The notes beneath the pieces are model-generated. The model had not been told where the DNA came from. It did no database searches and saw only the letters and a program-made list of their open reading frames with translations. This document shows, one piece after another, positions 40,113-64,000 of a stretch of 64,000 nt of DNA (its first letter is position 1; every line of letters begins with the position of its first letter). The DNA lies in the NCBI GenBank assembly GCA_030549335.1, contig CM060197.1:46651654-46715653 (forward strand), read 5' to 3'. This DNA comes from Pontederia crassipes. Taxonomy: Eukaryota; Streptophyta; Magnoliopsida; Commelinales; Pontederiaceae. The position numbers were made by a program, and so were the translations under genes.

Positions 40113-42360
40113 GAAGTTAGGATAATATATCGATCTAATTAAAACATTTCAAGAGGCTCGAATTTATTTATAAAGAAAATACATATATATAAACAAATAT
40201 TCTAAAATAATTTTAAAAATATATAGTTCAAATAATTTCTTTTTTAACACTCAACTCAGATTATAAACCAAAATCAATTATCGCATATTTGACGATGCAT
40301 TTTTTTATCATTGAAAAGTCGACTTCTCCAAAAGTGATATAATAAATCAAAATATGTTAACAAAAATTAAACATGATGAAAATAAGAAAAAAAAGTAAAT
40401 TTCACCTACATTAAATAGTATTATCATGAACATAAATTTTTATTATTATAATTGTATCGATTATAATAATCTCATAGGATTGTTCAAATGAAAATTTGTA
40501 CATCAATTAAGCATTTTAATCTTGTAAAATCATAAGACCGAGATATGATAATCATTTTTGTAAAACTAATTTTGGAAATTTTGATTTCTTCTCTTAATAA
40601 CAACCTCAGAAAGATGTAGAAAAAAAAAAAGATGGCTAGCAAATGATGTAGTAGGATGTCATGCATGCCGAAATGTTTCTCAAATACATGTAAGGAAGAA
40701 GAAGAAGAAGAAGAAGAAGAAGAAGAAGAAGAAGAAGAAGAAGAAGAAGAAGAAGAAGAAGAAGAAGAAGAAGAAGAAGAAGAAGAAGAAGAAGAAGAAG
40801 AAGAAGAAGAAGAAGAAGAAGAAGAAGAAGAAGAAGAAGACTTCAATTGGAAGGAAATTTGAATTACAGCTCGTCCGATTCCAACACACACTAACAGTGC
40901 CACACCACAAACTAATCAATTACATCGAACCATCTCTTCACAAGCTACTCAACAGCTCAATTTATAATTCCTGCTAGCTGATACAAGATGGATTAAACTG
41001 GTATTATAAATCGGATAACACTGCTAGAAAGTAATATGAAGACTCTACAAATCGGCGACAACTCCTTTCTTCTCAGGCGACGATGGACGGAATCCTGCCG
41101 GCAACAGATTCAACTAGGACGACGGTGCATGAACTCCAATAATCTCTTTTTATTGGTTGTAAGGGATAAATACTATTAAGCTAAATACCAATAATATTTT
41201 TTATTGTATATGTATATATTTTTTGTTATTATATGAATAAAATATTATTAATCAATTTGGTTAGATAAAGTACTAGCTATTATACTTTTTACTCTGATTC
41301 CATATTATTGAGATGTTAATAACTATAGATACCAGATAACCAGATGTTTAAAAGAAAAAAAAATCAGTTACAAGGAGGTTCACGCCCTTGAAGAAAAAAT
41401 AATAGAAAAAAAAATAATATATACATGTGCCACTTAGGGGTGAAAGTAGTTTCAATCAGGTTGGATTTTCGATCTAGAAAAAATAATCATTACTTTTAAA
41501 GTTAATTTTTAAAACTTAAAAAACCATCTTAAAACTATTTAAAAAATAAAAGTCATCCTCTAATAAATTGGTTTATTCAAGTGATTTTTTGGGACTTACT
41601 TTTATATAATTATATCATAAAATTAAATTAATATAAAATATTTATTTTTATATTAAATATAAAATATACTACTACAATTTTAAAATTATTAAATTAGAGT
41701 TTGATAGTGTGATAGAAAAGTATGAAATTTTATACAAAAAATATTATATCTATAATAAAAGAATTGGTAACATATAAATTAATTATATAAATAAAAAATG
41801 AGTTCCACATGTTCCTATCATTTTCATATAAGTCCTAATTTTAATGGGTGGATTTTAATTTATTAAAAAACATTCTAAATCATGTTGACTCTTAATTTTT
41901 TTTATTTTTTCGATTTAATTTTTTTGAGCCACGTAGATTTTTTAGATTCATAGATTTTTTCTTACACCCCTAGTGACACTAGTGGCATATTATCAGTTTT
42001 CATTAAACTAATTTTATGAGATTTGAAATTGACATTTTCCTCTTTTTTTTTTCCATTTGGATATGTATTTGGCAAGATGAACAGATGCCTTCAATGGGCT
42101 ATTGATTTGAAACGAACGTGGCCCGTCCGGCCCATTATCCACGTGACTAAATCATTGATAGCCAATTTTCGTTCTTTAGGTATATGGATTTTATCGGGAG
42201 ATAGGGATTTAAAAAGGAGGTCAATAATAACAACATTAATAACAATTTTGAAACCATAATAATAATTTGGTTGGCATAATAATAATTTTCTATCGCTTCG
42301 ACGTCCGTCTGATTGCTGGCGATCAGGAGCGCCAACATAAATTAAGAGACATCAAAGTAT
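40113..42360. other. host spacer copy, paralogous to 17558-18170, 18430-18680 and 29303-29480
   Basis: 40113-40690 matches 17558-18165, 41250-41275 matches 18430-18460, and 41976-42140 matches 29315-29480, in the same order. This copy therefore shows the block before the MULE inserted in the other one. No conserved coding frame is seen. A short minus-strand frame ending at 41075 (VESVAGRIPSIVA) is the only protein-like piece and is weak. Confidence 0.65.
40694..40840. repeat. (GAA)n microsatellite, about 49 units
   Basis: Uninterrupted GAA repeat of about 147 bp in the host spacer copy. The paralogous position at 18165 has none. Poly-Glu, poly-Ser and poly-Phe frames across it are artefacts. 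Confidence 0.97.
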
Positions 42361-42430: not shown

Positions 42431-42964
42431 TCTTATTACCTGTTTTTTAAATGACATTACATTTTTCACAAAATTGGATTCTTTTTCCTTTTGTTATAGA
42501 TGTATATCATAAGAGTGTTTTTTTTATATCATCTTTGATATAAAAATCAGCAAAGCCACTCCACGTTCTTGAGAAGATATCAAGAAAATATCTCACGCAG
42601 AATATTAATAAGCGGAAAGATGACGATCCTTATAGAAAAAACTAAAAATATATAAAGGAACGCAAGACTGAAAGTTCTTATACTGCAACCAATCTTTTTA
42701 ACTATGCACCTGCTCCAATTAAAAAAAAAACAACTTATCACATCAAAATTAAACCACCAATCTTAACTAGAGATAAAACATGGATATATTTATGAGATTG
42801 ACAATATCTTATCCTGCCTCAGGTAGGTTAAAGCTTTTAAATTAAGGTTCGTTCTCCTTAATTAATTTGTGATGCATATATAATTCACTATATGAATCAT
42901 GCAGGGCGATGCATCTTTCGGTTCATCCTTGACATCAATATGGTTCAAGGTTCGTTCTCCTTAA
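42431..42964. other. AT-rich spacer with a 105-bp direct repeat
   Basis: AAGGTTCGTTCTCCTTAATT occurs at 42846 and again at 42950. Nothing else is recognised. Confidence 0.5.
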
Positions 42965-45257: not shown

Positions 45258-45324
45258 ATTAACTATACCGCTTTCTTGCTTAGCCTTAACAGACATGCCC
45301 TGAACATTATTACGCTTCTTATCA

Positions 45325-45402
45325 TCGACAATTGTAAGCTCCGCCGCCGCACGACTAGGGGAAGTAAGGAGCACCGGCTTTGCCGGAGCCTGCCGCATGT
45401 TT
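45325..45402 (-). pseudogene. RALF-like gene, 3' part beyond the Ty3 insertion
   Basis: On the minus strand, next to the target duplication (45398-45402), the frame of the 5' part continues as AAGSGKAGAPYFP to a TAG at 45357-45355. In the same frame just past the stop it reads SCGGGAYNCR, then more stops. GAxYNCR resembles the GASYYNC(R) segment of RALF peptides, but the other cysteines and the PYxRGC region are missing. The gene was therefore probably decayed, or an atypical short relative, even apart from the retrotransposon. Confidence 0.4.
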
Positions 45403-47672
45403 TGTAACGCTCGATTCATTTAAAAAAAAGAAAAAGAGATAAAATAGGAATATAAAAACAAATAGAGGAAGAGATAAATAGGAAATAAAGTTTTAAAATC
45501 TGAGGGGATTAAATCAAATCTTAAAGTCCCAATGGATCTCAAATTTCTCTCCTATAAATATGAGGCCAAGCCAACGAACTAGCCCCATTTATTTTTCCTA
45601 CAAGCCGGCCCTAATGTCTCTCCCGCTCGTGTGTCTTTTTCGTTCCTTCTCGTCCCTGATTCGCCGCCACCAATAGGGGACTCGTCGGAGGGATTTAGAC
45701 ATCGACGAACGTGAATGACTCACCTGGACAGAAGGAAACGGTCAGAAATAAAAAGAAAAAGGAATTGGAAGAAGAAGAGGAAGAACACAAAGAAGAAGAG
45801 AAAGGATAATGGAAACTTCATGAGGTACGGAACTAGGGTAGATTCTTCCTAGAATCATAATTTTAGACTTGAAGCATGTTCTAGTTAATCCCTAGTTATA
45901 GTATGATGTCGTATGATGATGTTTGATGCCGGCCATCATCGAAAAAGATGATCGAAACACGCACTGCACGTCCGCGCAGATTCTGCGTAAGAGGACCTGA
46001 TCCGATTGACCTTAACCCGACCCGAGCAGGTCCAAACTCGGATCAAGTTCTGTGAACTCGCCTCGGATCCGCCATTGCCGCGCTCTCCGAGCTCTGCAAC
46101 CGGACAAACCCGGCCCGGGTTGATGATGACCCGGCTCGAGTTCCACCCACGATGACCCAACCCAACCTGGGTGTGACCCGAGCCCAGCCCGGGTTTAACT
46201 CAATTTTTTCGAGAATGATGTTCGATGAACTCGGCCCGGATTCTACCTGACTCGGATCGGGTTCCGATGCTGTTTTGATGATTTTTATAATCTCTTGATC
46301 CCTGATTCATGTGATTAATCCTGATTTAAGTCATGATTATGCTTATGTTATTATGCCTTTACTATAATGATGTCCAACATGACCATGATCTTATGACTGT
46401 TATTATAATGAATTGATTTAGATCCAATCATATCGGTGATGACACCTATTCATACCCATCAATGTTGATCTATTTATGATGATGATTAAGATGTTTATGT
46501 GCATCTGATTTCTCTCCATGATCCTATCTTGTAGCTCTGATTATGTCTTATATAATGATGATGATGATTAAGACCCTTGATCATTATGATTTATTAATTC
46601 TTTTCTATGATGACCAAATCTTGATCATGATCCTTATGTCCTAATAAAGATAAATTAAAAACTACAAGATAAAAGATAAAAAATGTTAAATGGAGAGCGC
46701 TTTTTATGATGGACTGGTTAGTTATGGACTAACTACGATCAGTTATTGGCTGGCTCTGCTAATTATGATGATGATGATGGACGAGTTGAGACAGGCCTCC
46801 CCGTGGATTGAAATATACCCCACTATAAGTCAAAGATGAATAATAAGATGATGAAGAAGATGAAGCATATTAATAACAAAATATTTTCATGATGATTAGC
46901 GACTCTTGTCACACTTATGATGGTCTGTCCATGATCTCTTGATCTATTATTAATATGATCTAAAGAAGATGATACAATTCATGATTTTCTATTTTCACAC
47001 AATTATTTTTCATGAATCTTTATATGATGATGACTTCATAATCATGATGATCGACTTTTGCCTCCTTTATGATTTATTTTGATCTATCCTAATCTTTAAT
47101 CTTATGATGTCAAGAAGATTACAATCTATCAATTTCCTATCTATATGTCAAGTTATAGGATCTCTTTTTCACATATGATGATGATGATGTTTATTTTTTT
47201 TATATGATGATGATGTCCTTATGATTCTTGTCTAGTATTATGATCTTATGATGATGTTTATCTTACTTCCATACTGAGTTGTAAAACTCATAGGAAGGTT
47301 CTCCCCTGCATATTTTTAAATGCAGGATCAGATTTTAATGATGAAGGTGGCCAACGGTGACAGATTGAGCTCATAAGTGGCTGCACATGATTATCGAATC
47401 CTTTAGATGATGGATAGTTTTTTTCTTTCTTTTTATCATTTGATGTATTAGCTTTCCTTTGGACTCCTATAAAGTCATTTATCAATCTTCCGCATTTCAT
47501 GATGCTATTCTCTTTCATTATTAATGATGATTTAGTTATTCTGCATTTATCATTATTGAGTTGACCAGTCAAGTCTTCCTTATTGGTCAATATGATGTAC
47601 ACGTAAGGATGACCCGTAGCGTTCCCGAAGCGTATTCTGTCACATGGCGGGGTGTGATTTGGGGACGTTACA
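45403..47672 (+). repeat. 5' LTR (2270 bp) of the element in the RALF-like gene
   Basis: Contains a TATAAATATGAGG promoter word near 45552, a GACCCGA/GGGTCGG-rich patch (46010-46200) and long ATGATG-rich sequence. Confidence 0.9.
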
Positions 47673-47674
47673 GT

Positions 47675-47688
47675 TAGGTATTGGAGCC
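47675..47688 (+). other. primer-binding site, tRNA-Met type
   Basis: Next to the 5' LTR, TAGGTATTGGAGCC is close to TTGGTATCAGAGCC. Confidence 0.7.
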
Positions 47689-48940
47689 TAAAGTTTGAAC
47701 ATTCTCATGTCTTAATGTATGATGTCATGGTCCATGTACAAGTGTCACGAGCAGTCACCGCGCCACCTGAAGTCATGTCAAGTAAGTTTGTCCCTCTTTC
47801 ATTAGTTAAATGATTAAGATGGCAACTCTTAACTTATGATACTTGCTTATGTCAATATTGATCTTTACGATATCTATAATGATGACCAATGATGATGTAC
47901 TATATGAAGATAGAACAATTTCATGATGTGACAATTGACATGATAACATTTATCTTCCGTATTATCTTATCATATATTTCTCATGTCACACTTCATATTG
48001 TCCATCGTGCTAGGATGATGAAGTAATGATGCAATGATGATTTGACCAAATCTCTATTATTGATTTCATATGTGACCTCAATCTATATGGTCGTTCGTAC
48101 TATCAAAGAAGTGTCCTTTCATAATGATGTTTAGGAAAAGGTCACATCAACATAAGTAAGAAAAAATTACTGATCTATTTTGATTTGGTAAAGATGATGA
48201 TTGACATTATTCCATTATCAATCTTATCAAATCATATGTTTTCATTATCTACAATGATGAACAACACTCTTAGTGAGCCTATTGACCCTTATATGACATA
48301 AGCTACTTTTAAGGATGTTGACCTTATGAAAATAATTTCATACCATAAAGTACGTCCTACTAATACAAATGACGATTCTTAGGAGGATTATGATGGGATT
48401 CTTAGTGCCAATTGAGTTTTGTTTTAGGATGTATAAGTATTATGGAAGAAGAAGATAGTTACCAGTACCCAAGTGAACTAAAAGCTATAGTTAGAAGTTG
48501 AGTATCATATCGACATTCTTTCTAGTATGACTCTGATTTCAAAAGCCCCATGACACATGAATTGAAGAGTTAAATTTAGTAACTTTAAGACAAGGGATTT
48601 ATGAGACCGATGTCTCATTTTTAGAATGTTCCACTTCTTTTGTAAAGAAGAATGACGACTCTATGAATTTAAAGATTCATTTACAAGTTGTTAAATAAAA
48701 CAACCATTAGGACGCAAGTATCTATTTCCATGTATAGATGACCTATTTAAAACCAGGATGTTCTCCAAAGTTGACCTATGAAGTGAGTACCAGTAGCTTC
48801 GGATTGTTGAAGAAGATATACAACAACAACAAATAACAACAAACCTTATCCCACTAGGTGGGGTCGGGTACATGGATCATACGACGTCATTCCGCTCTAT
48901 TAATAACCAAACATTTCGGTATATTATTCACTAATAGATC

Positions 48941-49906
48941 TTACTCTATTAGTTCGCCAAGTGTCTGCCTTGGCCTCCCTCTCCCTCTTTTAATCGGACT
49001 CCAGATTATTTGATCTACTCTTCTTACTGGCGCATCTAATGATCTTCTCTGAACATGACCAAACCATCTCAAACGATTCTTTACTATTTTCTCACTAATA
49101 TGAGCCACTCCGACTCGTTCACGTATATGGTCATTCCTAATCTTATCTAATCTTGTATGATCACACATCCATCTCAACATCCTCATTTCGGCTACCTCCA
49201 CTTTACATTCATGTTGTCCCTTCATAGCCCAACATTCACTACTATATAACATTGCCGGTCTTATAGCAGTACGATATAATTTTTCTTTAACTTTATTGGG
49301 TACTTTTCTATCACAAAGAACTCCAATGACTTTCCTCCACTTACACCAACCAGCTTGAATTCTATGATTAACGTCGTCATAAATCTCATCATCTTGTCTT
49401 ACAATTGATCCTAAATATTTAAACTTTATCACTTGAGGGATTATATCCTCCCCTAGCCTAACTTCCAAATCGTCTCTAAGTTGTTTATTTGTGAAATTGT
49501 AATGCATATATTCTGTTTTATTCCTACTTAAACGAAAATCTTTTGACTCCAACGTATTTCTCCATATTTCCAATTTTGTATTAATCTCTTCTCTTGAATC
49601 CGCTAAAAGTACTATATCATCCGCAAATAGCATGCACTTAGGTACCTCCTCTGTGATACTTTCGGTTATAGCATCGATTACTAAGTTAAATAGACACGGG
49701 CTTAAAGCTGATCCTTGATGTAGGACAATTCCTATAGAAAATTTATTTGTCTCACCTCCGGGTGTCCTAACCCTAGTCAATGCCCCATCGTACATATCTT
49801 GTATTACCTTAATGTAGGCAACACTCACCATCTTCTTTTGCAAGGCTTTCCAAAGTACATCTCTTGATACCCGATCATACGCCGTCTCTAAGTCAATGAA
49901 AGTCAT
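48941..49906 (-). pseudogene. LINE reverse transcriptase, C-terminal part
   Basis: 321 residues cover RT motifs from FIDLETAYDRVSR (motif A) through QGSALSPCLFNLVID (motif B) to CMLFADD (motif C with both catalytic Asp), then the thumb and the RTE-specific tail with WFGHVQRR. This is the longest intact reading frame in the window. Upstream RT and endonuclease lie in other frames (49928-50872, 51037-51834), so a full ORF is not made. Confidence 0.9.
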
Positions 49907-49927
49907 ATGTAAGTCTCTTCTCCTACT

Positions 49928-50872
49928 TCAATACTTCTCCATCATCCCCCTTAGTAAATAAATCGTCTCTGTAGTGGATCTTCCTGGCATGAACCTAAAT
50001 TGTCTCTCAGAAATACTAGCCTCCATTCTCAATCTATGCTCAATCACTTTTTCCCATAATTTCATTGTGTGACTCATAAGTTTAATCCCTCTATAATTTG
50101 CACAATTCTGAATATCCCCTTTATTTTTGTAAATAGGAACTAATGTACTTAATCTCCAATCATCAGACATCTTTTTCGACCGTAAAATCTCATTAAATAG
50201 TTTACATAACCACAACACACATTTTTCTCCTAAACATTTCCAAACTTCAATCGATATACCATCCGGTCCAACGGCTTTACTATTCTCCATTTTCTTAAGA
50301 GCTTCGCTAACCTCCGAGACTTTAATTCTACGATAAAATGACCTATTAAGCTCACATTCGCTAACTGTCAAGTCCTCCAAATCACAACGGGAACCTTCAT
50401 ATCTATCATTAAATAGCTTATAGAAATACTCTTCCCATCTGTTCTTAATATCTCCCTCAGTATTTAAAACCTTGCCAACTTCATTTTTTATGCATCTTAC
50501 TTGATCCAAATCTCTCGACTCCTTCTCTTTATTCCTTGCAATTTTGTAAATCCTTTGGTCACCAGCCTTTGTCCCTAACTCCTTATAAAACTCCTCATAT
50601 GCTTTAGCACGAGCATCACTAACTGTCTTCTTAGCCTCCCTTTTCGCCAAACGATACTTTTTCCAATTGTCAGAACTATTGTCCAAGTGTATCGCCTTGA
50701 AACAATTCTTCTTATTACGCACATTTTCTTGGACCTCCTCATTCCACCACCAAGTTTCATTATCTCGTGGTCCAAAATCTTTTGATTCTCCTAAAATGGC
50801 TTTAGCAATCATTTCAACATTTTTTGCCACATTCTCCCACATGATACTAGCATCTCCTTCTAACTCCCACAC
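49928..50872 (-). pseudogene. LINE linker and reverse transcriptase N-terminal part
   Basis: 314 residues run from the endonuclease-RT linker (charged, WWNEEVQE) to RT motifs 0-2 (AVGPDGISIEVWK, WRLSTLVPIYKNKGD, NYRGIKLMSHTMKLWEK, RFMPGRSTTE). A frame break separates it from the downstream RT piece. Confidence 0.88.
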
Positions 50873-51036
50873 ACTTTCCTCTAATAACTTACTTCTAAAA
50901 GTCTCTCGCTTCTCCCCCTTTAACTGTCACCACTTGATTTTTCGATCAAAAATTATTCGAGGTTTTGATTTTATACATTTTATTTGCATATCAAGAACTA
51001 ACAATCTATGTTGTGTAGTCACCTCATGCCCATGAA

Positions 51037-51834
51037 TTATTTTGCAATTACTACAGCGTCTTTTATCAATATTTTTGTCAAGAAAAAATTGATTTGAAAC
51101 CTGTGAGTTCCACTTTTGTACGTGATTAAATGTTCCTCTCTTTTCCTAAAATAAGTGTTGATAATCTTAAAGTCGTATGCTAAAGAAAAATCAATAATAG
51201 TTTGTCCTTCCTCATTCAACTTTCCAAAACCACCATGAACCCTTGCATGTGGTCCTGTCTCTTTATCAACATGTCCATTAAGGTCTCCCCTAATATAAAC
51301 TTTCTCGGTTGTTAGTATACTTTCAATCAAACCCTTCATATCTGCCCAAAACTTCTCCTTGAGATGTGATTCTGCTCCTACTTAGAGTGCATATGCACTA
51401 ATAATGTTCATAGTCTCATTTCCAACAATTACTTTCACGGATATGATTCGATCCTCAATCCTTTTAACTTCCATAACATTCTTCCTCCATTCTGCATCCG
51501 CGATAATACCAACACCATTCCTTCCCTTTACTTTACCTGTATACCAAAGTTTGGAACCATTTAACCTAATCTCTTTAATTCCCTCTCCTACCCATCTAGT
51601 TTCTTGCAAGCATAAGATACTAATCTTACGCTGGTCCATTACTTGTGCCACCTCGAGGCGCTTCCCATTCAACGTCCCAATGTTCCAAGAAACCAATCTG
51701 ACCTTAGTATCATGAACTAGCTTCTTTAACCGCCTCCGTCCATTAGAGTGCGGTAGCCCTTGCTCATTTGACACTGCATTCAGGCAAGGATACAGCGGCT
51801 CTTGCTCTCTTATGATTGTACCCGAGCTGTACAA
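51037..51834 (-). pseudogene. LINE apurinic-type endonuclease domain
   Basis: Two open pieces (51834-51382 and 51339-51037) carry EEP-fold motifs: RLVSWNIGTLNGK (N-terminal strand), ILCLQETRWVG (catalytic Glu) and RGDLNGHVD (the GDxN motif). The end of the domain with the SDH motif is not clear. Confidence 0.85.
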
Positions 51835-54146
51835 CGCGTTACTTACGAGTAACGACCTAGCATTAACACAATATATTCATTGATCCATGTTCATGAGATT
51901 CGACAGGGTTTTACACTGGCTGTCGGGGCCTAACACAACCCTCCTCCTTTATCCGAGCTTGGGACCGGCTATAAAACATAGGCGGAGTTTGTTGAAGAAG
52001 ATATGATGAAGATAATTTTTATGTCGATGTATAATCACTATGAATTTAGTGATGCCACTGGATTAACGAACACCCTCAAACTTATATGGACTTCATGAAC
52101 ATGGTGTTCGTACTATCCCGGAGCAATATAAGGAACATATGTGAATTGATACTGATGGTACTAAGATAGCATAAATTCACATGAAAAAAAATGATTGAAG
52201 AAGTATAAGATGAAATAACTAACTTAGGAACTCAAATGAGTTGTGGTATTATCCTCAATTATTTAGGAAGGATTGTGAGGTTGTAGTATTATTCTGAAAT
52301 ACTACTTATATGAAGTTTCTAAAAGATTCTAAGTTCCTCGTAAATTACCACCATGGTAACGAATTCTATTCCGCACTCAAATACAAGAAGGAAGGCTCAT
52401 TAGGCTTCAATGAGACTGCGTGAATATGAACAAGTATGTGGAACCCAAATGATGAAGCCTTAAAAGAGGAAGTATTACACAAATGTTCTAAGCCTGGGTT
52501 GTGATCCATTTGGGATTATGCCTTATAAGAAAAAAGTATTAAAGGAATATTATAAGCCTAGGTTACGATCCATTTGGAAAGTACAAGATAAGGATGTAAC
52601 CATAAGTCTGGGTTACGATTCATTTGGGAAGTACATAGATGTATAAGGATGAACGAATAGCAATGACATGAAACATGGAGATACAAAAGTATGTTCTAAG
52701 TACTTAGTATATCAATATGAAAAAGGTAGAGCACCAGAAACCTTATAAAAAGATGATGCACGACATTAATATTTTTTATATAAGAATGGCATTATCTAGG
52801 ATGACACTTTTATCTATTGATGTCAATGCTAATTTTAATGATCCTTACGATCATGTATATGATTATATGAATTATGAACAATTTTATTTTATAAAGATGG
52901 TGACTACCAATGATGATGGATTATACTTAATGACCCTCATGATAAAATTTCTCCCACAATGCTTGGCTGTGCCATTGTTGATCTTAATGATCCACATGAT
53001 GACCACCCCGTAATAAATGAGTGATCTTAGGATGATGATAATCTATCTTAAGATGTCAAATAATCAATCATCTTGATTTCCTTATGATGTCCCATGGTTG
53101 TATAATTAATCATACTATATGTTACCTTGATGACTCTTAATTTTAGGATCGGCGATGATCATGCCATATGCGCATGATTATGATGATCACTTTTATCGAA
53201 ATAATCATGAGATAAGTTCTTATTTTTCACCCATCAATGCATATCGATTCTATGTCATTGTTCATGATGATTTCTATTGTCAAGGAGGATTATGTCATTT
53301 GCAAAATTTCCATCGAGACCTTGTATAGGATACCATATTGCTTACCTACATGTAGGAATGAGGTAGGTGAAGGAAAGTTTCTAATGCCAAAGAGCTGAAG
53401 TAGACAACATAAACATGTCAAGAAAGTTGCATTGATATAAAGAGGATGAAGGCAGCTCTAACATGAAAGAAATTTTATGCCGATGAATATGGGCATAGAT
53501 GAATTTTTTTAAACCAAATGACAAAGTGGTATGAAAGGTATCTCCAACCAAGTATGTTTGATCCATATCACTCAATGGATCAGAAATTGAAATATGTCCA
53601 AATGATGTCATGTCATGACATCCTTATGCTTTCTCATGATGATTGAAGCTAAAAGACTTAATTGGTCCCTTGTGACCAAAAGTTAGGATGCTAGATTAAG
53701 GAAGATACAAGATGAAAAGAGGATTGTCATGATTTATGTAAAGAAGAGTTTATAATATTATATGAGGCAACTCTCTAATTGACATATGGATGATTTGAAT
53801 AGCAACACATTATTGTGTTAGTTGAAGTAGATTTTATTTTCCCAATTATAGAAGAGGCAAAATGAAAAGGTAAACCATATGATGAAGGAAAAGATGAAAG
53901 AGAAGGTTATATGATAAAAGGACCTTTGCCTAAGATTTATGATGATAAAAGGACTCATTGTCCTAATGCATATGATAATGGAAGGACTATGTCTTTAATA
54001 TGATAAAGATGGAATGATGAGGAAGAAATGCTTTTCTAAGTGTGAGATGTACCATCACACAAATGACCAAGAAGTTTTCTTCTTGTTAGTAAGCTCCTAC
54101 CCGATGACTAAATTCGAGGACGAATTGTATTTTAAAGGGTTTATAA

Positions 54147-56454
54147 TGTAACGCCCGATTGATTTCAAAAAAAAAAGAAAAAGAGAAAATAGAAATATAA
54201 AAACAAATAGAGGAAAAGATAGATAGGAAACAAAGTTTTAAAATCTGTGGGGATTAAATCAAATCTTAAAGTTCTAATGGTTCTCAAATTTCTCTTCTAT
54301 AAATATGAGGCCAAGCCAACGAACCAACCCCATCTATTTTTCCTACAAGTCGGCCCTAATTTCTCTCCCGCTCGTGCGTCTTTTTTGTTCCTTCTCATCC
54401 CTAATTCTCCGCCGCCAACAGGGGACTAGTCGGAGGGATTTAGACATCGAAGAACGTGGATGACTCGCTTGGACTAAAGGGAACTGTCGGAATAAAGAGA
54501 AAAAGGAATCGGAAGAAGAGGAGGAAGAACACAAAGAAGAAGAGAAAGGATGTGAGGTTCAATGGAAACTTTACGAGGTACGGAACTATGGTAGATTCTT
54601 CCTACAATCATGATTTTAGACTTGAAGCATGTTCTAGTTAATCCCTAATTATAGTATGATGTCGTATGATGATGTTTGATGCCGGCCATCGTCGGAAAGG
54701 ATGATCGGAACACGCACTGCGCATCCGCGCAGATTCTACGTAAGAGGACCCGGTTCGGATTGACCTTAACCCGACCCGAGTAGGTCCAAAATCAGACCGA
54801 GTTCTGTGAACTCGGCCCGGATCCACCATTGCCGCACTCTCCGAGCTCTGCAATCGGACGAACCCCGCCCGGGTTGATGATGACCCAGCCCGAGTTCCAC
54901 CCACGATGAAGAAGTCGGGCGCGATGACCGCCCCAACTTGACGATGACCCGACCCGGCCCGGGTGTGACCCGAGCCCAGCTCGGGTTTAACTCTAGATTT
55001 TCGAGAATGATGTCCGATGAATTTGGCCCGGATTCTACCTGACTCGAATCGGGTTTCGATGCTATTTAGATGATTTTTATGATCTCTTGATCCCTGATTC
55101 ATGTGGTTAATCTTGATTTAAGCCATGATTATGCTTATGTTATTATGCTTTTACTATAATAATGTCAAACATGATCATGATCTTATGACTCTTATTATAA
55201 TGAATTGATTTAGATCCAATCATATCGGTGATGACACCTATTCATACCCATCAATGCTGATCTATTTATAATGATGATTAAGATGTTTATGTGCATCTGA
55301 TTTCTCTTCATGATTCTATCTTGTAGCTCTGATTATGTCTTATATAATAATGATGATTAGGACCCTTGATCATTATGATTTATTAATCCTTTCCTATGAT
55401 GACCAAATCTTGATCATAATCCTTATGTCCTAATAAAGATAAATTAAAAGCTGCAAGATAAAAGATGAAAAATATTAAATGGAGAGCTCTTTTTATGATG
55501 GACTGGTGACGACCAGTTATGGGCTGACTACGGCCAGTTATGGGCTTGCTCTGCCAATTATGATGATGATGGACGGGTTGAGGCAGACCTCCTCGTGGGT
55601 TGAAATATACCCTACGATAAGTCAAAGATGAATAATAAAATGATGAAGAAGATGAAGCATATTAATAACAAAATATTTTCATGATGATTAGTGACTCTTG
55701 TCACACTTATGATGATCTGTTCATGATCTCATGATTTATTATTAATATGATCTAAAGAAGATGATACAAATCATGATTTTCTATTTTCACACAATTATTT
55801 CTCATGAATCTTTATATGATGATGACTTTATAATCATAATGATCGGCTTTTGCCTCCTTAATGATGATTTATTTTGATCTATCCTAATCTTTAATCTTAT
55901 GATGTCAACAAGATTACAATCTATCAATTTCCTATCCATATGTTAAGTTGTAGGATCTCTTTTTCACATATGATAATAATGATGTTTATTTTCTTTTTAC
56001 ATGATGATGATGTCCTTATGATTCTTGTCTAGTATCATGATCTTATGAGGATGTTTATCTTACTTTCATACTGAGTTGTAAAATTCATAGGGAGGTTCTC
56101 CCCTGTATGTTCTTAAATGCAGGACCAGATTTTAATGATGAAGGTGACCAACGGTGACAGATCGAGCTTGTAGGTGGCTGCACATGGTTATCGAGTCCTT
56201 TAGATGATGGATAGTTTTTTCCTTTCTTTTTATCATTTGATGTATTAGCTTTCCTGTGGACTCCTATGAAATCATTTATCAGTATTTCGCATTTCATGAT
56301 GTTATTCTCTTTCATTATTAATGATGATTTAGTTATTCCGCATTTGTCGTTATTGAGTTGACCAGTAATATTAATGATGTACACATAAGGATGACCCGTA
56401 ATATTTCCGAAGCGTATTCTGCCACGTAACGGAGTGCGATTTGGGGACGTTACA
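54147..56454 (+). repeat. 3' LTR (2308 bp) of the element in the RALF-like gene
   Basis: Collinear with 45403-47672; ends GGGGACGTTACA. Minus-strand reading through the LTR from the RALF-like exon gives a fused 270-codon frame that is an accident of the insertion. Confidence 0.9.
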
Positions 56455-56459
56455 TGTTT

Positions 56460-56732
56460 ATTCTGATTCAGCGTGAGATTGGCTATGTACTTACCTGACT
56501 GGAGGAACCTCTCAACCGTCTCCGATGGCAGCGCCCTCTCCTCTTCCTCCTCCAGTCCACCGGGAGACGGACGCCATTGTTGTCCTGTGGAGCCATTGAC
56601 CTGTCCTCGTTCCACTTCCATACCCAGAGCTCCGCCATATTCATCATCCTCAACAGCAGTCGTAGCAGCACACAAGGCAGCAGAGAAGACTGCAGCCATG
56701 ACTAGGAGTGGAAAGCAGATGCTGAACCCCAT
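56460..56732 (-). pseudogene. RALF-like secreted peptide precursor, 5' part, cut by the Ty3 element
   Basis: ATG at 56732 opens MGFSICFPLLVMAAVFSAAL, a clear signal peptide (cleavage likely after CAA at 21-23), then an acidic propeptide with a Glu run (residues 61-65). Residues 70-91, SETVERFLQSGKYIANLTLN..., match the spacing of RALF precursors, where S-E-x3-R-x-L-x3-KYI holds the RRxL protease site and the YISY receptor motif; here they read ERFL and YIAN. The frame is interrupted at codon 93 by the 11-kb element. In-frame ATGs lie upstream (to 56897), but this one gives the signal peptide. A GTAAGT at 56494 could act as a splice donor. RALF peptides signal through FERONIA-type receptor kinases at the cell surface; that role is inferred from family only. 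Identification rests on pattern recall, not a search. Confidence 0.5.
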
Positions 56733-56927: not shown

Positions 56928-57297
56928 TGTTGGAATTTATATCAGATATAAATTCTAGAGGTTGCGGAATACCTCTTGCAGCGGAAGCGGATCGTCGGGA
57001 CTTTCCCACGAACTCTTGACGAACGCACTTGCACCTCGGGATCGGTAACCGAACCTCTGAGAAACGGAACTCTTTGCCACAGCACAAGTACTCTGGACGA
57101 ACCTCTGTGAAAGTGTGTTTGGGACATATACTATGGGTCCCCTTTTATAGGGTGGGGAGACTTGGGCGACAAGTTAGGCAGAACGCATCATGCACGTCCA
57201 TCACGCATATGATGATGTGTCTGCACAGGCATGCGCCTCGCCCTAATGGGCCGTGCGTATGTGCGGCCCATGTGCCCAAAAGGGCACTATTCCAACA
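56928..57297 (-). repeat. copia LTR (370 bp), minus orientation
   Basis: Starts TGTTGGAATT and ends TTCCAACA. It is followed on the plus strand by ATCTCCCACTTGCCC, the reverse of a copia polypurine tract, so this is a 3' LTR of a minus-strand element. Confidence 0.8.
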
Positions 57298-57879
57298 ATC
57301 TCCCACTTGCCCGCATTGGGCATTGTACTTTCGTTTATCCAGAATTTGTAAATGTGTTGTGCGATCCATGAGTACAAGCACGCTTCTTTATAGGAGCTAG
57401 AAAGATACGTTCAATCGCTCAACTATCTTTAGAGCGTATGTCATGCCCCTTAGGGATTCATGACAGCTCACATATGAGCCAACAAATGCTCAAATAATAT
57501 AACTTGTTATGCCCTAGATCTGTCTTGCAGCATAGTTAAGACAACGCATGTCTTGCTCTGCGATAATCTTTCACATACACTATTTTCAAAAAAATAGTTG
57601 GCCAATTGTATGCGAAAGCTTTATGCAGCTCATAACAGTTCTTTCTCTCGCCCTCATGTCTTATAGTAGTGAACTAGCTATTTTTCTAGACATGGTTCGT
57701 CAGGCTACTTTACTTTTCACCTTTGAGTATCATGCTAAAGTAGCAGGCACTAATTCCTTTCCTTAAGACATAGTCAAGAGTCTAAGGGCACGTGCAGATG
57801 AAACATCTATCAGAGACACACCATGATGACCATTGAACTAATCAATTCATCATGTCTCTCTAGGTCGACTTTGCATAGA
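57298..57879 (-). other. copia 3' untranslated region fragment
   Basis: Sequence next to the polypurine tract is non-coding, as usual in copia elements with a long 3' tail. It ends where plus-strand copia coding sequence starts, so this is a junction of two elements. Confidence 0.55.
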
Positions 57880-59440
57880 AGAAGACGATGATGAGGCGAA
57901 TGCTGCTCGCTTCAAAAAGCTTGGTCCGAACAAGAAGTCAAAGGGACAGCGTGGAAAGCTGCCGCGTGGAGCTTGTTATGCCTGTGGAAAATTCGGACAT
58001 TTCAAATCGAACTGCACCAAGGCAAAAGGGCAAAAAGGGCAAAGCCAAGATAAGAAAGGCAAGAAACCCAAATTCGCTGACGTCATTGAATGCAACGCTG
58101 GAAGTACTGATTCTATGGGATGGTGGATCGATTCAAGGGCGACCCATCATATCACCAAGACCAAGGATGGGATGACTGACTTCAAAGAATTGAAGAAGGG
58201 GGAACAAAAAATATACATGGGTAACAACACCTACCTTGATGTGGAAGGTGTGGGAAATTATAGGTTGGATTTGGGAGATTGCATCTTGTCTCTTAATGAT
58301 GTGTTATATGCTCTCGGTATCCGTCGAAACCTCGTATTTGTTCCCATACTTCTGAAGAAGAATTTTGAAGTTAGGTTTTATAATGGTAGGGCAACTATAG
58401 GTAAGGACAAGAAAGTCCTTACCGTCGGGAGGTTTGTTCCTGGACATGATTTATTTTGCCTACCTGTTGTAACTGACAATATATCAATGAATGTGGATGT
58501 CATTTTTTATTATTCTCTGTGTGAATATTCTGATTATGATCTTTGGCACGACCGATTAGGACATCCAGGAAAAACAAAAATGGAACAAATCATAAGAATG
58601 AACCTAGTTCCTAGAATTTCAAATGCAAGAACATTGCCTTGTGAACATTGTTTGACCGGAAAAATGAATCGAAAGCTATTTTCAGGAGTAATAAGGTCAA
58701 AAGAATTATTAGGATTGGTTCATTCTGATATTTGTGGTCCTCTTAGTATCATGACACACAAGAATAAGGAGTACTTTATCACATTCATTGAGGTTTTTTC
58801 AAGATTCTCCTATGTTTATCTCTTGGATAAGAAGTCAAATGCTTTTGAAGCATTCAAGAGATATAAGATGGAAGTAGAGAAGAAATTAGGAAGACCAATT
58901 AAAACATTAAGGACAGATAGAGAAGGGGAATACACCTCCCAGGAATTTAATGATTATTGCATTCAGGAAGGTATTAGTAGACAAACTACAATGTCATATA
59001 CGCCACAGTAGAATGGCGTGGCATAAAGAAAGAATAGAACATTGATGAATGCAGTAAGGTGTATGTTGTCCCACTCAGGCCTTCCTAAAAGTTTTCGGGG
59101 AGAGGCAGTATTAAGTACAAATTGCATACAAAACAGAATTCCCACAAAGTCCGTAGAAACCACGCCATATGAATTGTGGAATGGCAGGAAGCCTGATATA
59201 GGCCATCTTCGGAAATGGAGATGTAAAGCGCATATTCTAGTTCTTAATCAATTGAGGGACAAACTTGATTTTAGGATGTTGGCATGCAGGTTCATTGGAT
59301 ATAGTCAACAATCCAAAGGGTATAGATTTTTTCACAGAGAAAAAGGGTTAATTGAGAGTCGCGATGCAACATTCCTTGAAAATGAAAAGGAACAAGTGCA
59401 CGAAGAAGAGGAGCAAGTGCCGGATGCTCACGGTCAAGTT
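57880..59440 (+). pseudogene. copia gag-pol fossil A (zinc knuckle to integrase)
   Basis: Domains in order: zinc knuckle (CYACGKFGHFKSNC), aspartic-protease start (WWIDSRATHHI), the GAG-pre-integrase region (LWHDRLGHPG, CEHCLTGK) and integrase core (HSDICGPL, FITFIEVFSRFSYVYLL, RTDREGEY), then the TPYELWNGRKP and KGYRFFHR tail regions. LTRs and RT are absent. Broken, with a small number of breaks. Confidence 0.8.
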
Positions 59441-62165
59441 TGACTCTTATCGGAAGCAACCAAATCATACGATGATGGAGCATATCAAAAAGATGTCTAA
59501 CATGATCCGTGAACTCAAAAGTACGGGACAAGTGCTCGATGACGAGCAACAGGTGCAAGCTCTGATCTGCTCTAATATAGCATCTGTTGCTAATAGTTAT
59601 TCTTTTATATCATCTGTTGATGTGAATGATAGTGCCAACATTTGGCATGTCAGACTAGTACATATTGGTCAAGATCGAATGAATAGACTTGCTAGAGAAG
59701 GCCTCTTGGGGTCTCTCGCAAAAGTTGATCTTTCAACATGTGAGGAATGTCTAGTTGGTAAGAAAACAAGAACACCATTTGGGATGGGAAAACGCGCCGA
59801 GTACCCATTACAATTAATCCATTCGGACATATGTGATCCGATGAATGTTCATGCAAGACGGTTTCTCTTATTTCATCACATTTATTGATGATTATTCACG
59901 TTACGGTGTTGTATACTTGATTTCTCATAAATATGAAGCATTGGATTATTTTGTACGATTCATGTACATGGCAGAGAATCAAGTGGATCGCAAGATTAAA
60001 GCCTTGCGAACCGACTGTGGACGTGAATATCTCTTTGACTTATTCAAAAAGTTATGTGATGAAAAAGGTATAGTTAGGCAACTAACAGTACCGAGAACTC
60101 CACAACAAAATGATGTTGCAGAATGACGGAATCGTACCTTATTTGATATAGTCCGATCCATGATGGCGCAAGCTAATCTCCTAATTTCGTATTGGGGAGA
60201 TAGGTTATTGACTGCAGCCTACATTTTAAACCGTGCACCATCGAAATCCGTTTCTACCACACCTTATGAACTTTGGACAGGTCGAAAGCCTAACCTTAGT
60301 TATTTGCATCCTTGGGGTTGCGCAGCCTATGTTCTAAACAACTCTCATAAGTATGGGAAGTTGGGTCCTAGAGGGCAGAAATATATCATTATAAGATATT
60401 GTGAAACCTCTTAGGGCTATGTATTCATAGGAGAAAGAGAAGATGGTATGGTAACGAAAATTGAAAGTAGAGATGTGACATTCATAGAGAACGAATTTTC
60501 TAAGCAAGGCGAGATAGACAAGGAATTTTTCATAGATGTAGAGGAAGATCCTGAGTTGACGGCTCAAGTGGATCAACTAGTTGAGGAGTTAGTCTCCTCT
60601 ATCCCACAGCTTGATCCGAGTGGAAGAGATTCACAACCATCAACTGCTGATCAACCTGAAGATTCTCTTCGACGGAGTACTAGAAAACATGTTCCGCGCC
60701 GACGTTTTGAAATCGAAGGGCTGCATGAACATGGACCACATGAGGTCAACATAGTAAGTCTGGAAGATGAACTTGAGCCAAAATCTATCAAAGAAGCTCT
60801 CTCGTCCCCTGCTAAGAAAGAATGGATTAAGGTAATGGATGAAGAGTTAGGATCCATGCAGAAAAATCAAGTCTGGGACTTGGTTGATCTCCCACCAAGC
60901 CATAAGGCAATTGGGAACAAATGGGTTCTCAAAATTAAACGTGGCGTGGATGGATCAATTGAGATATATAAAGCCTGCCTAGTGGCGAAAGGTTTCACCC
61001 AATCTGCGGGTGTTGACTATGAAGAAACTTTTGCACCAGTTGTAAGGTTTGCTTCAATTCGCCTAATATTAACTATAGTCGCACAATGGACTTAGAATTA
61101 CATCAAATGGATGTAAAAACCGCATTTCTCAATGGAGAACTAGATGAGAAAATTTACATGGAGCAACCTCAAGGCTTCATTGTAAAAGGAGAAGAGCGCA
61201 AAGTTTGCAAGCTACATCGGTCCATTTATGGACTCAAACAATCATCTAGACAGTGATATCTGAAATTTCATTAGTCAATCATTTCGTACGATTTTAATAT
61301 GATTGATGAAGATCACTGTGTGTATGTTCATAAGTTCGAGGATAATTTTGCTATCCTGATGTTATATGTCGACGACATTCTAATAGTTGGGAATAATAGA
61401 GACTATGTCATTACCATTAAGCAATGGTTGTCCTCCATGTTTGAGATGAAGGACATGGATGAAGCAGCATACATACTGGGTGTGAAAATTCAACGCGATC
61501 GTTCCAAACAACTCCTTGCCTTGTCGCATGAATCATATATAAAAAAAAAATTTTGGAACGATTCCACATTGATGGTTGTAAACCCATTGACACTCCTATT
61601 ATGAAAGGCGATGTTTTAAGCTTGGACATGTGCCCAAAAACTCTAGAGGAACAAAATAAAATGTCCAATGTTCCTTATGTGAGTGTGGTCGGCAGCCTGA
61701 TGTACGCTATGATGTGTACTCGACCGGACATATGTTTTGTCGTGGGTCTAGTTAGTCGATATCAGGCTAATCCAGGATGTCAACACTGAAAGGCGGTGAA
61801 GAGAATCATGAGATACCTCAAGGGTACTGCAAATTTTGCATTATGCTATCATGGAGGAAGTCTACAACTTGTTGGATTCACCGATGTCGATTGGACTGGT
61901 GACGTTGATGAACGTAAATCCACCTCCGGATACACTTTCTTGCTCAGCAATGGTGTTATTACTTGTAGTAACAAGAAACAAGATTGTGTGGCACTGTCAA
62001 CTATGGAGGCTGAATTCATAGCTTGTTCAGTGGTAGTACAAGAGACCTTATGGCTTTAGAGATTCCTTCAAAACCTGAGAATTTCTGAGAATGCAATGAA
62101 GAAAATGATTCTCCACTATAACAATCAAGCAGCCATAGCTTATGTGAAGGACGAGAAATACCACG
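59441..62165 (+). pseudogene. copia pol fossil B (gag piece, integrase, RT, RNase H)
   Basis: A short gag helix (MMEHIKKMSNMIREL) joins directly to a second GAG-pre-integrase and integrase, then RT (KEALSSPAKKEW, WVLKIKRG, and YVDDILIVGNN near 61360) and RNase H (TDVDWTGDVDERKSTSGY, STMEAEFIA). It differs clearly from fossil A, so it is a separate element joined to it by deletion or insertion. Broken, with several breaks; no LTRs. Confidence 0.8.
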
Positions 62166-62760
62166 TCGAAGACCTAACTTTTTCTTTTGTAGTTGGCCAA
62201 GTCTTGTTCAATGGCCAATTGGGCTGGCAAATCTGTCGCCGACTTAATACATCCATTAAGTCGTAAAGTCGTGATAGCCATGTCAAAATTGGGAGGAAGG
62301 CTATTCAGCACGGTGGCAACCTGTAAGGGTTCAGGAATCATTGTACCAGCTGTTGCTAAGTCTTTAGCCAACACAATCATTCTATTGACATGATCTATCA
62401 CATTTTCTAACTCTTTCATTTTACAAGTGTTATAATTGTGCAATAACAACTGAATATTTACTTCAGTTTTATAGTCATATTTGGCCTTTATAGCCATCTA
62501 TAGATCACGTGTTGTTTTTTGTGATTCGAACACCCTTATCAAATTATCTTCCATGTGCATCAACATGAAAGATCTTGCCTTCTTATCCTCTCTCTCCCAC
62601 TTGTCATGTGCTTTCTCTTGTGCCTCAATTTCTTCTGGTGTGACATTCTCGGAAATCACAGGACAATTATTTTCAATAACCCTATGAAGGTTATCATGCA
62701 TAAGTCCATACTTGATCTTGCGGCTCCACATATCATAATTCACGCCATTTAGGCGTTAAA
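62166..62760 (-). pseudogene. copia gag fossil C, minus strand
   Basis: A UBN2-type gag: WSRKIKYGLMHDN, KWEREDKKARSFMLMHMED, LQVATVLNSLPPNFDMAITTL. It begins next to the primer site and LTR at 62984-63233 and reads toward fossil B, where it stops abruptly. Broken, with about one or two breaks. Confidence 0.8.
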
Positions 62761-62983
62761 GTTTTGCCAGCTCCATTGCAAATAACTTTGAAGTCATTTT
62801 CTACTCGACGAGTTACGCAGGCAAACAAGGGAAATTAAATCCGACGGTTCCGATGACGAGGACAGCAGATTCTTGTTGGAAAAAATTCGCCGGATGAAGA
62901 CAAAAGTGCTGGAGGGGACGATCGCTCAAAAGACTCATGTGGTTTGTTGGAAAAAAAACAGCGTTCGCACAGGAAGATCGCTC

Positions 62984-62995
62984 GCTCTGATACCA
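62984..62995 (-). other. copia primer-binding site, tRNA-Met type
   Basis: The plus strand reads GCTCTGATACCA, the complement of TGGTATCAGAGC. Confidence 0.9.
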
Positions 62996-62996
62996 A

Positions 62997-63233
62997 TGTA
63001 AGCTTTTGAACCACGATTGGAGTTCCCAGGACGTCATCTTCAACTATTTATAGGCGCATGCACCGTCCAGTCCACCTCCTTGAACCGTGCCCCTTTCCGA
63101 CGAATGGACGCACCGTTACGTCAAAGGTTGCCTCCGGCCACCTTCCAAGCGGTCGAGCCACTTCACCGACGGTTGCTCCGGCAACCGCCTGTGACCAATA
63201 AAGGTCACTATATAACAGTATGAATGTCGGACA
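62997..63233 (-). repeat. copia 5' LTR (237 bp) of fossil C
   Basis: TG...CA ends (TGTAAGCTTTT to CGGACA). On the minus strand a TATATAGTG word lies about 30 bp from its start, a plausible retroelement promoter. Confidence 0.8.
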
Positions 63234-64000
63234 GCTGAAAATAATTATTATAATGTAGTTAATGTTCTAATTATATTTTATTTAAAGTTTGATTGAATTT
63301 CACTTATAAGAGATTGCTAATTGGAAAGTGATAGTTCGTGGATTGTTGTGACCTGATTAGGCTGTTACTAGATGACGAGACCTTCTTTTCCTTTTTGGTA
63401 AGTATTATAGTAAATTCATAATAGGACTTGGTTTATGATAAGGACGCTGAGTACCCATGATTAGTGAATTACCAAATTCATTTTATAATATTAATTAATC
63501 AAGTAACGAATGTGATAGGTTGTGTTTACTTTTGATTGGATTCGGACAAGGAGATAATTTGGAACTCGACGAATATAAGGTGAGGGAACTTATCTCAAAT
63601 GATATAAATTACTTAACTCTTCGGAGTGGTAATATTGTCCCATCCGATGTGGGGCAGAATTTCTAGATCGTTTTTATTCATGCATAATCATACTTATTTG
63701 TGTGCTTCATATGTGTGTCATCATATGAATTGTGATGTTTAATTATGACGGAATTTTTAGATCATTTTTATTCATGCATAATCATACTTATTTGTGTGCT
63801 TCATATGTGTGTCATCATATGAATTGTGATGTTTAATTATGAATTTTGGAAGCCTATCGATTTTGATAAAAGTTTCTATTATTTTCCTGAATAAAATATT
63901 CATTTTTGAAATGAAATATTTTAGCGTGATGACTTCAACTTCAAACCGTCGTTGTGAATCATCATGTGCACTTCATGTAAAAACTCACATAAGGCAGAGT
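63234..64000. other. AT-rich spacer, possibly another LTR
   Basis: No coding sequence is recognised. Words such as ACTCGACGAATATAAGGTGAGG and TCATCATATGAATTGTGATG are common in Ty3 LTRs, but no terminus is visible before the window ends. Confidence 0.35.
63655..63842. repeat. 94-bp tandem duplication
   Basis: Two units (63655-63748, 63749-63842) differ at only about three positions, so the duplication is recent. Confidence 0.9.

Follow-up and report, generated by a model that had tools for sequence, protein, structure and literature searches.

A RALF-like peptide gene of Pontederia crassipes split by an 11-kb LTR retrotransposon: a probable pseudogene of a tandem two-cysteine family

Introduction

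How should a small secreted-peptide gene be read when its frame stops at the edge of a retrotransposon and resumes on the other side? Such a locus lies in a 64,000-nucleotide stretch of the Pontederia crassipes genome (hereafter the window; C15:46651654-46715653 of the plant's own assembly, 1.13 Gb in 43 contigs), where a RALF-like precursor spans positions 56732 to 45322 on the minus strand and is interrupted by an 11,052-bp long terminal repeat (LTR) element. The gene may have been intact when the element arrived, it may already have been dead, or the element may lie in an intron from which it is spliced. Comparison with relatives in the same genome, above all with an element-free sister on the same contig, leads us to conclude, with a probability of about 0.93, that this is a pseudogene from a family of RALF-like secreted peptides duplicated in tandem, whose ancestor was uninterrupted and into which the element inserted after duplication. 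The window copy has presumably lost its function.

The interrupted frame and its match to RALF

The coding features of the locus, in window positions, are as follows.

56460..56732, minus strand: 5' part of the RALF-like gene, codons 1-91, with a hydrophobic leader, an acidic stretch and SETVERFLQSGKYIANLTLNQN; open frame, homologous to 24 loci in the same genome
45322..45402, minus strand: 3' part, codons 92-118, including one copy of the target-site duplication (TSD); by the codon map it reads KHAAGSGKAGAPYFP, stop, SCGGGAYNCR, stop, and matches the C-terminus of relatives
45355..45357, minus strand: internal in-frame TAG, where the sister has CGG (comparison with the sister, codon map)
45322..45324, minus strand: terminal TGA, at, or at most 1-2 codons from, the end of most relatives
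56502..56513, minus strand: ERFL, specific to the window copy; the sister has the cleavage site RRFL here (alignment with the sister and relatives)

Joined across the element, the minus-strand frame is open for 106 amino acids, from the ATG at 56732 to the TAG at 45357-45355, with the insertion point at codons 92-93; downstream of the TAG it reads SCGGGAYNCR up to the TGA at 45324-45322. The claim in a preliminary description of this DNA that the frame resumes in phase past the element is thus borne out, both by this open frame and by the alignment of the joined flanks to the element-free sister. The hydrophobic N-terminal leader is visible in the window copy and conserved in the alignment with its relatives. 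The RRxL cleavage site is missing (ERFL, with RRFL in the sister), as is YISY (YIAN), and there are two cysteines, not four, at codons 109 and 116, both past the TAG. The altered motifs had been noticed before; YIAN, however, is common to the window copy and the sister and predates the insertion, whereas ERFL is found in the window copy only.

RALF was the sole Pfam family matched by the joined 106 residues, with 17 bits and an E-value of 0.013, short of the curated cut-off of 22 bits; the match covers residues 65-104 and spans the insertion site. In a control scan of 10 proteins (the separate pieces, the joined form with X at the stops, six shuffled sequences, and the 5' piece extended into the start of the LTR-encoded tail), neither piece by itself matched a Pfam family, nor did the joined form with X or any of the six shuffles, and the extended 5' piece matched RALF at 13.6 bits (E 0.15). 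The profile search proposed earlier for the host pieces hence recovers RALF from the joined form and nothing from the pieces alone. By itself, the window sequence is a sub-threshold match for which RALF would stay a good guess; it is because of the relatives in the same genome, and their scores above the cut-off, that we assign the locus to a divergent RALF-like family. The joined protein had no match among solved structures at E-values up to 10, and of the 15 pattern stretches that it gave in a viral-contig scan, none was confirmed; the whole window gave nothing in tRNA and Rfam scans.

A tandem family with two cysteines

The RALF profile matches 74 places in the genome at E-values up to 10. 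Used as a query, the joined protein gave 27 match rows, which we grouped by hand into 24 loci (eight on C15, nine on C16 and seven on C9); the 11 rows ranking after the window locus itself are 66-87% identical to the joined protein. When eight open-frame relatives were tested, five exceeded the RALF cut-off (25.4 to 35.2 bits), one reached 18.4 bits, and two had no RALF match; the in-frame part of the sister scored 13.7 bits and a canonical RALF of the same genome 83. On these comparisons the locus belongs to a predicted divergent RALF-like family, so that the RALF identity put forward previously is supported by its being the sole Pfam family and by five of eight relatives, although not by the score of the window copy itself. 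The family is spread over C15:46.45-46.71 Mb, C16:3.0-3.48 Mb and C9:3.27-3.33 Mb (loci L050-L075).

To locate the cysteines, 18 relatives (the 19 loci whose frame reads through the insertion site, minus L070) were aligned in two alignment modes with nine four-cysteine RALF-like proteins of the same genome. All 18 have exactly two cysteines and end in C-x(4-6)-C, with ends such as QCGAGIYNCRG, RGCSTAYNCKP and SCTYPPC; in all of them the Cys1-Cys2 segment is absent, and the retained pair lines up with Cys3-Cys4. RRxL is kept in 16 of the 18 and an exact YISY in one. Since the aligned relatives lack Cys1-Cys2 and keep a pair aligned with Cys3-Cys4, the SCGGGAYNCR of the window copy appears to be the native end of the family and not the remnant of a four-cysteine peptide. 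The single cysteine segment past a stop, as first described, is therefore present, but it does not reflect decay of a four-cysteine RALF. In the local Pfam alignments, the profile match stops at position 44 or 45, which we take to be the second cysteine, in the matching relatives of the C15/C16 type and in L069 from C9, but extends to position 64 in two other relatives from C9; it is in these two that the retained pair is most firmly assigned to the last one, because their profile match reaches that far.

The wider reading, in which the dead window copy belongs to a working plant family, i.e., a branch of RALFs with at least 18 aligned loci of the 24 on C15, C16 and C9 that has lost the first-disulfide segment and mostly kept the leader, RRxL and the last cysteine pair, is more tentative, and we would give it slightly less than an even chance.

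Several other loci deserve mention in their own right. In L057 (C16:3446806) and L059 (C15:46465633), two copies of one member, ACG stands in place of the start ATG seen in the other aligned members. The pro-region of the member at C16:3340704-3341786 (L065/L071) is interrupted by about 570 bp of inserted sequence, and an in-frame TAG directly follows its RRIL site. Low-scoring RALF-like places also cluster at C8:4.65-5.14 Mb and C7:68.8-69.1 Mb; their C-termini vary, and four have an in-frame TGA. L042 (C11:11778800-11780800) has a RALF-like frame with other residues at the cysteine positions (VPW...).

An element-free sister preserves the empty site

The closest relative of the window copy, the sister, lies at C15:46638567-46639648, on the same strand and contig, about 70 kb away and without the element. 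The joined flanks of the insertion align to it in one continuous alignment (949 of 1,119 columns identical), in which the five duplicated bases occur once, and each flank, searched separately, matches it independently. This alignment directly displays the structure before insertion, and supplies from the same genome the unoccupied locus that had been suggested as a check. The sister retains RRFL and is itself damaged: relative to the window copy and the other aligned relatives it has a 1-bp insertion about ten bases upstream of the target site, which shifts the frame.

Upstream of the ATG, the two copies remain homologous for about 195 bp, as far as 56928, where TGTTGGAATT begins. On the other side, window positions 42475-42942 are also homologous (about 85%) to the downstream side of the sister, and the duplicated unit therefore extends further left than the gene.

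A search of the genome with the 5' flank gave 16 places at E-values up to 1e-5: itself at 100%, the sister at 86%, and then two places on C16 with near-full cover at 82% and 81%; the best C16 identity, 84%, covers part of the flank only. No allelic copy of the 5' flank was thus found on C16 in this search, whereas at three family loci the divergence between C15 and C16 is only 0.5-1% (a fourth pair, L057/L059, at 0.26, was left out, its flanks ceasing to be homologous). Loss on C16 may be the simplest reading of the missing copy.

The inserted element

The insertion and its parts are listed below.

45398..45402, no strand: left copy of the TSD, TGTTT (sequence)
56455..56459, no strand: right copy of the TSD, TGTTT (sequence)
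45403..56454, plus strand: LTR retrotransposon, 11,052 bp, apparently non-autonomous; orientation inferred from sequences resembling a primer-binding site and a polypurine tract
45403..47672, plus strand: left LTR, 2,270 bp, TGTAACG...CGTTACA (LTR comparison)
54147..56454, plus strand: right LTR, 2,308 bp, TGTAACG...CGTTACA (LTR comparison)
48941..51876, minus strand: open reading frames (ORFs) for a reverse transcriptase and endonuclease resembling those of a long interspersed nuclear element (LINE), antisense within the element (Pfam)

Paired LTRs, TG...CA ends and a 5-bp TSD identify the element as an LTR retrotransposon, and its length and perfect TGTTT duplication are as originally described. 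Its assignment to Ty3, by contrast, is not supported by any coding domain found. It relied on terminal motifs, namely GGTATTGGAGCC after the left LTR, which is like a primer-binding site, and ATTCGAGGACGAAT...AAAGGG before the right LTR, which is like a polypurine tract; we presume a resemblance to plant Ty3 elements in both, and this does not establish membership. The inner part holds 20 stop-to-stop ORFs of at least 60 amino acids (the size floor of the set), and in the 12 that were scanned with Pfam, three of them in shorter form, no gag, integrase or Ty3-type pol was matched; the remaining eight all lie within the LINE-like stretch. There, one antisense ORF matches RVT_1 above the cut-off (E 1.4e-21) and a second below it (E 2.7e-5), with Exo_endo_phos also below the cut-off (E 3.4e-4), a pair that we read as LINE-like. 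The 248 bp preceding the right LTR have at least 40 matches in the genome (358 candidates, 40 scored), the own copy at 100% and the others at 86-92%, and the inner part of another element copy (L089), judged by eye, has only short ORFs. We read the element as a member of a high-copy, non-autonomous LTR family. It is presumably comparable to the non-autonomous elements called large retrotransposon derivatives, with which it has in common long LTRs, a 5-bp TSD, no gag or pol domain found and many copies, and from which it differs in that the window copy has antisense LINE-like ORFs inside.

Other repeats were seen nearby. The locus L042 on C11 holds 598 bp of the element's LINE-like stretch at 94.8% identity. 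Upstream of the gene, window positions 56928-64000 carry an element, presumably Copia-like, with Pol_BBD, gag_pre-integrs and rve in the ORF at 58115-59011 (Pfam), for which a search reaching 4 kb beyond the window found no second LTR copy. An ORF with a long serine run at 40484-40903 on the minus strand is probably a simple repeat.

Decay and order of events

The tree groups the window copy with the sister (support 0.996), on branches of 0.069 and 0.0096, respectively. When pairwise counts were split by hand with L050 as the outgroup, the window branch received about 8.35 nonsynonymous and 4.15 synonymous changes, and the sister branch 0.65 and 1.85, i.e., a five-fold excess on about 15 changes (p 0.035 at 12 of 15; p 0.007 at 13 of 15). 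By these estimates, change in the window copy amounts to about five to seven times that in the sister. The nonsense codon may have a simple origin: both bases that differ between TAG and the sister's CGG fall within one CG pair, which fits deamination of methylated CG on both strands. The earlier alternative of a decayed or unusual RALF copy therefore holds in both parts, the family being unusual and the copy decayed (TAG, ERFL, long branch), with the TAG specific to the window copy.

The Kimura two-parameter distance (K2P) is 0.089 between the two LTRs (150 transitions and 35 transversions over 2,248 columns) and 0.098 between the window copy and the sister (52 transitions and 42 transversions over 1,029 columns). 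Because the LTRs are rich in transitions, we ordered the events by transversions, for which the distances are 0.016 for the LTRs, 0.041 for the duplication and 0.002-0.003 for C15 versus C16 at three loci. With 35 of 2,248 columns against 42 of 1,029, the insertion would follow the duplication, and on the same count it would precede the C15/C16 split. At the rice rate of 1.3e-8, which may not apply here, the LTR divergence would correspond to about 3.4 million years.

Taken together, these comparisons suggest the following history. By comparison with the relatives, the ancestor was a single uninterrupted coding sequence of about 117 codons, with a leader, an acidic pro-region, an RRFL cleavage site, a YIAN-type mature N-terminus and one terminal cysteine pair. 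Its product was probably a secreted prepropeptide, cleaved at RRFL to a peptide of about 40 residues with one disulfide, if known RALFs are a guide (PMC5258720; PMC10442051). The alignments indicate that the gene was duplicated within about 70 kb on one contig, that the retrotransposon then entered codons 92-93 of one copy, duplicating 5 bp, and that this copy, before or after the insertion, gained a nonsense codon, lost the RR site and changed more than the sister. A transcript from the old promoter would now read into the right LTR in antisense and lack the cysteine segment, and the one-disulfide peptide would no longer be expected from the window copy.

Alternative explanations

Several observations weigh against this history. 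In the 5' part all 91 codons remain open, which by our own rough estimate is uninformative at this divergence; the window copy itself falls below the Pfam cut-off for RALF; the K2P values of the LTRs and of the duplication are close (0.089 and 0.098), so that the order of events depends on the transversions and on the element-free sister; and the faster change of the window copy is based on some 15 substitutions only (12 of 15, p 0.035). One alternative is that the transposon landed in a pseudogene, the locus having died earlier. The sister, too, is disrupted in its mature region, by its 1-bp insertion, and the pair may therefore have been under weak constraint; the window branch is also long. 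However, the lesions differ, the TAG of the window copy facing CGG in the sister and the sister's frameshift being absent from the window copy, and therefore neither was inherited from before the duplication. Moreover, the 5' part of the sister is conserved, with its 0.65 or so nonsynonymous changes against about 8.35 on the window branch. We regard a locus already dead as unlikely, while giving it appreciably more weight than either of the two readings that follow.

The preliminary description had also allowed that the element might lie in a short intron starting at GTAAGT (56494), in which case the gene would still be spliced and functional. The sequence CAG/GTAAGT, present in both the window copy and the sister, does resemble a good plant splice donor as judged against the plant consensus. 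Nevertheless, GTAAGT falls in Gly-Lys-Tyr codons that are also present in the uninterrupted sister, the bases past the putative donor encode the aligned Lys-Tyr-Ile, and the 3' piece holds the internal TAG, which argues against a spliced functional gene. We reject this reading, which we consider extremely improbable, since in 19 of the 24 loci the genomic sequence is contiguous across the site in one open frame, as in a single-exon RALF gene; the other five are the window copy, the frameshifted sister, the member at C16:3340899-3341786 that is broken elsewhere by an insertion, and the distant L074 and L075, which were not used. RALF genes rarely have introns: maize RALFs are reported to have none (PMC11511124), and a single one, in GmRALF11, is given for soybean and Arabidopsis (PMC9583537).

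Equally remote is a new secreted protein born of fusion with the right LTR, in which the RALF leader and pro-region would be followed by an LTR-encoded antisense tail in a 270-residue ORF from an upstream TTG. The ORF at 56897-56085 on the minus strand is indeed open, the tail frame is open in both LTRs, and the ratio of nonsynonymous to synonymous substitution rates between them (dN/dS, NG86) is 0.35 over 122 codons. We give this little weight because, despite that ratio, the inter-LTR substitutions show no significant codon periodicity (9, 12, 18; p 0.20), which is equalled or exceeded in 8 of 65 overlapping sections along the LTR. Selection acting on both LTR copies is implausible, and the 270-residue ORF has no Pfam family, a 131-residue part matching only RALF (E 0.15), from the host end.

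Comparison with known RALFs and significance

With canonical RALF precursors (Pfam PF05498; clades I-III; Campbell and Turner, 2017) the family shares the leader, the acidic pro-region, the SE-x-x-RR-x-L context and the single exon, as well as a mature part that opens with a Y-I-S-Y-like stretch, and its C9 relatives share a C-terminal PYxRGC(5N)C-like pair. It differs in lacking the whole Cys1-Cys2 segment and in its degenerate YISY, and the window copy differs further in ERFL for RRFL, the internal stop and the insertion. A degenerate YISY and an altered cysteine set are also found in the clade IV "RALF-related" peptides, which, according to PMC5258720, almost entirely lack RRXL and miss the acidic region; here, by contrast, RRxL is present in 16 of the 18 aligned relatives, and an acidic stretch is kept by the relatives in the alignment with the window copy and the sister.

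Single cysteine pairs have been described elsewhere. Of the 61 RALFs of Brassica napus, 10 are reported to have a single pair, either the first or the last (PMC9113046), and the first disulfide is reportedly missing from the RALFs of nematodes and Fusarium (PMC10442051). Going by these descriptions, the likeness lies in having one cysteine pair, which is the second in the parasite peptides and in some of the Brassica ones; the difference, by the same descriptions, is that here a plant encodes the peptides in a tandem family, most aligned members of which retain the cleavage site. We found no account of a tandem plant RALF family without the first disulfide but with RRxL in the accessible text of the open-licence literature. 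A transposon in a member of a tandem family is ordinary, and two-cysteine RALFs are already known in Brassica, so a known kind is extended here.

As an insertion, the case shows cleanly how a transposon can end a peptide-hormone gene, the empty site having survived in a tandem sister. As the break itself is ordinary, the milder interest lies in the family, most members of which still have an open frame. With a natural series that lacks the first disulfide, one could ask whether binding to the receptor or the cell wall depends on that half of the peptide. If the open members are secreted and active, they would form a plant-made series of one-disulfide RALFs with the same cysteine set as the nematode and Fusarium peptides, and such a series would show which part of RALF suffices for signalling.

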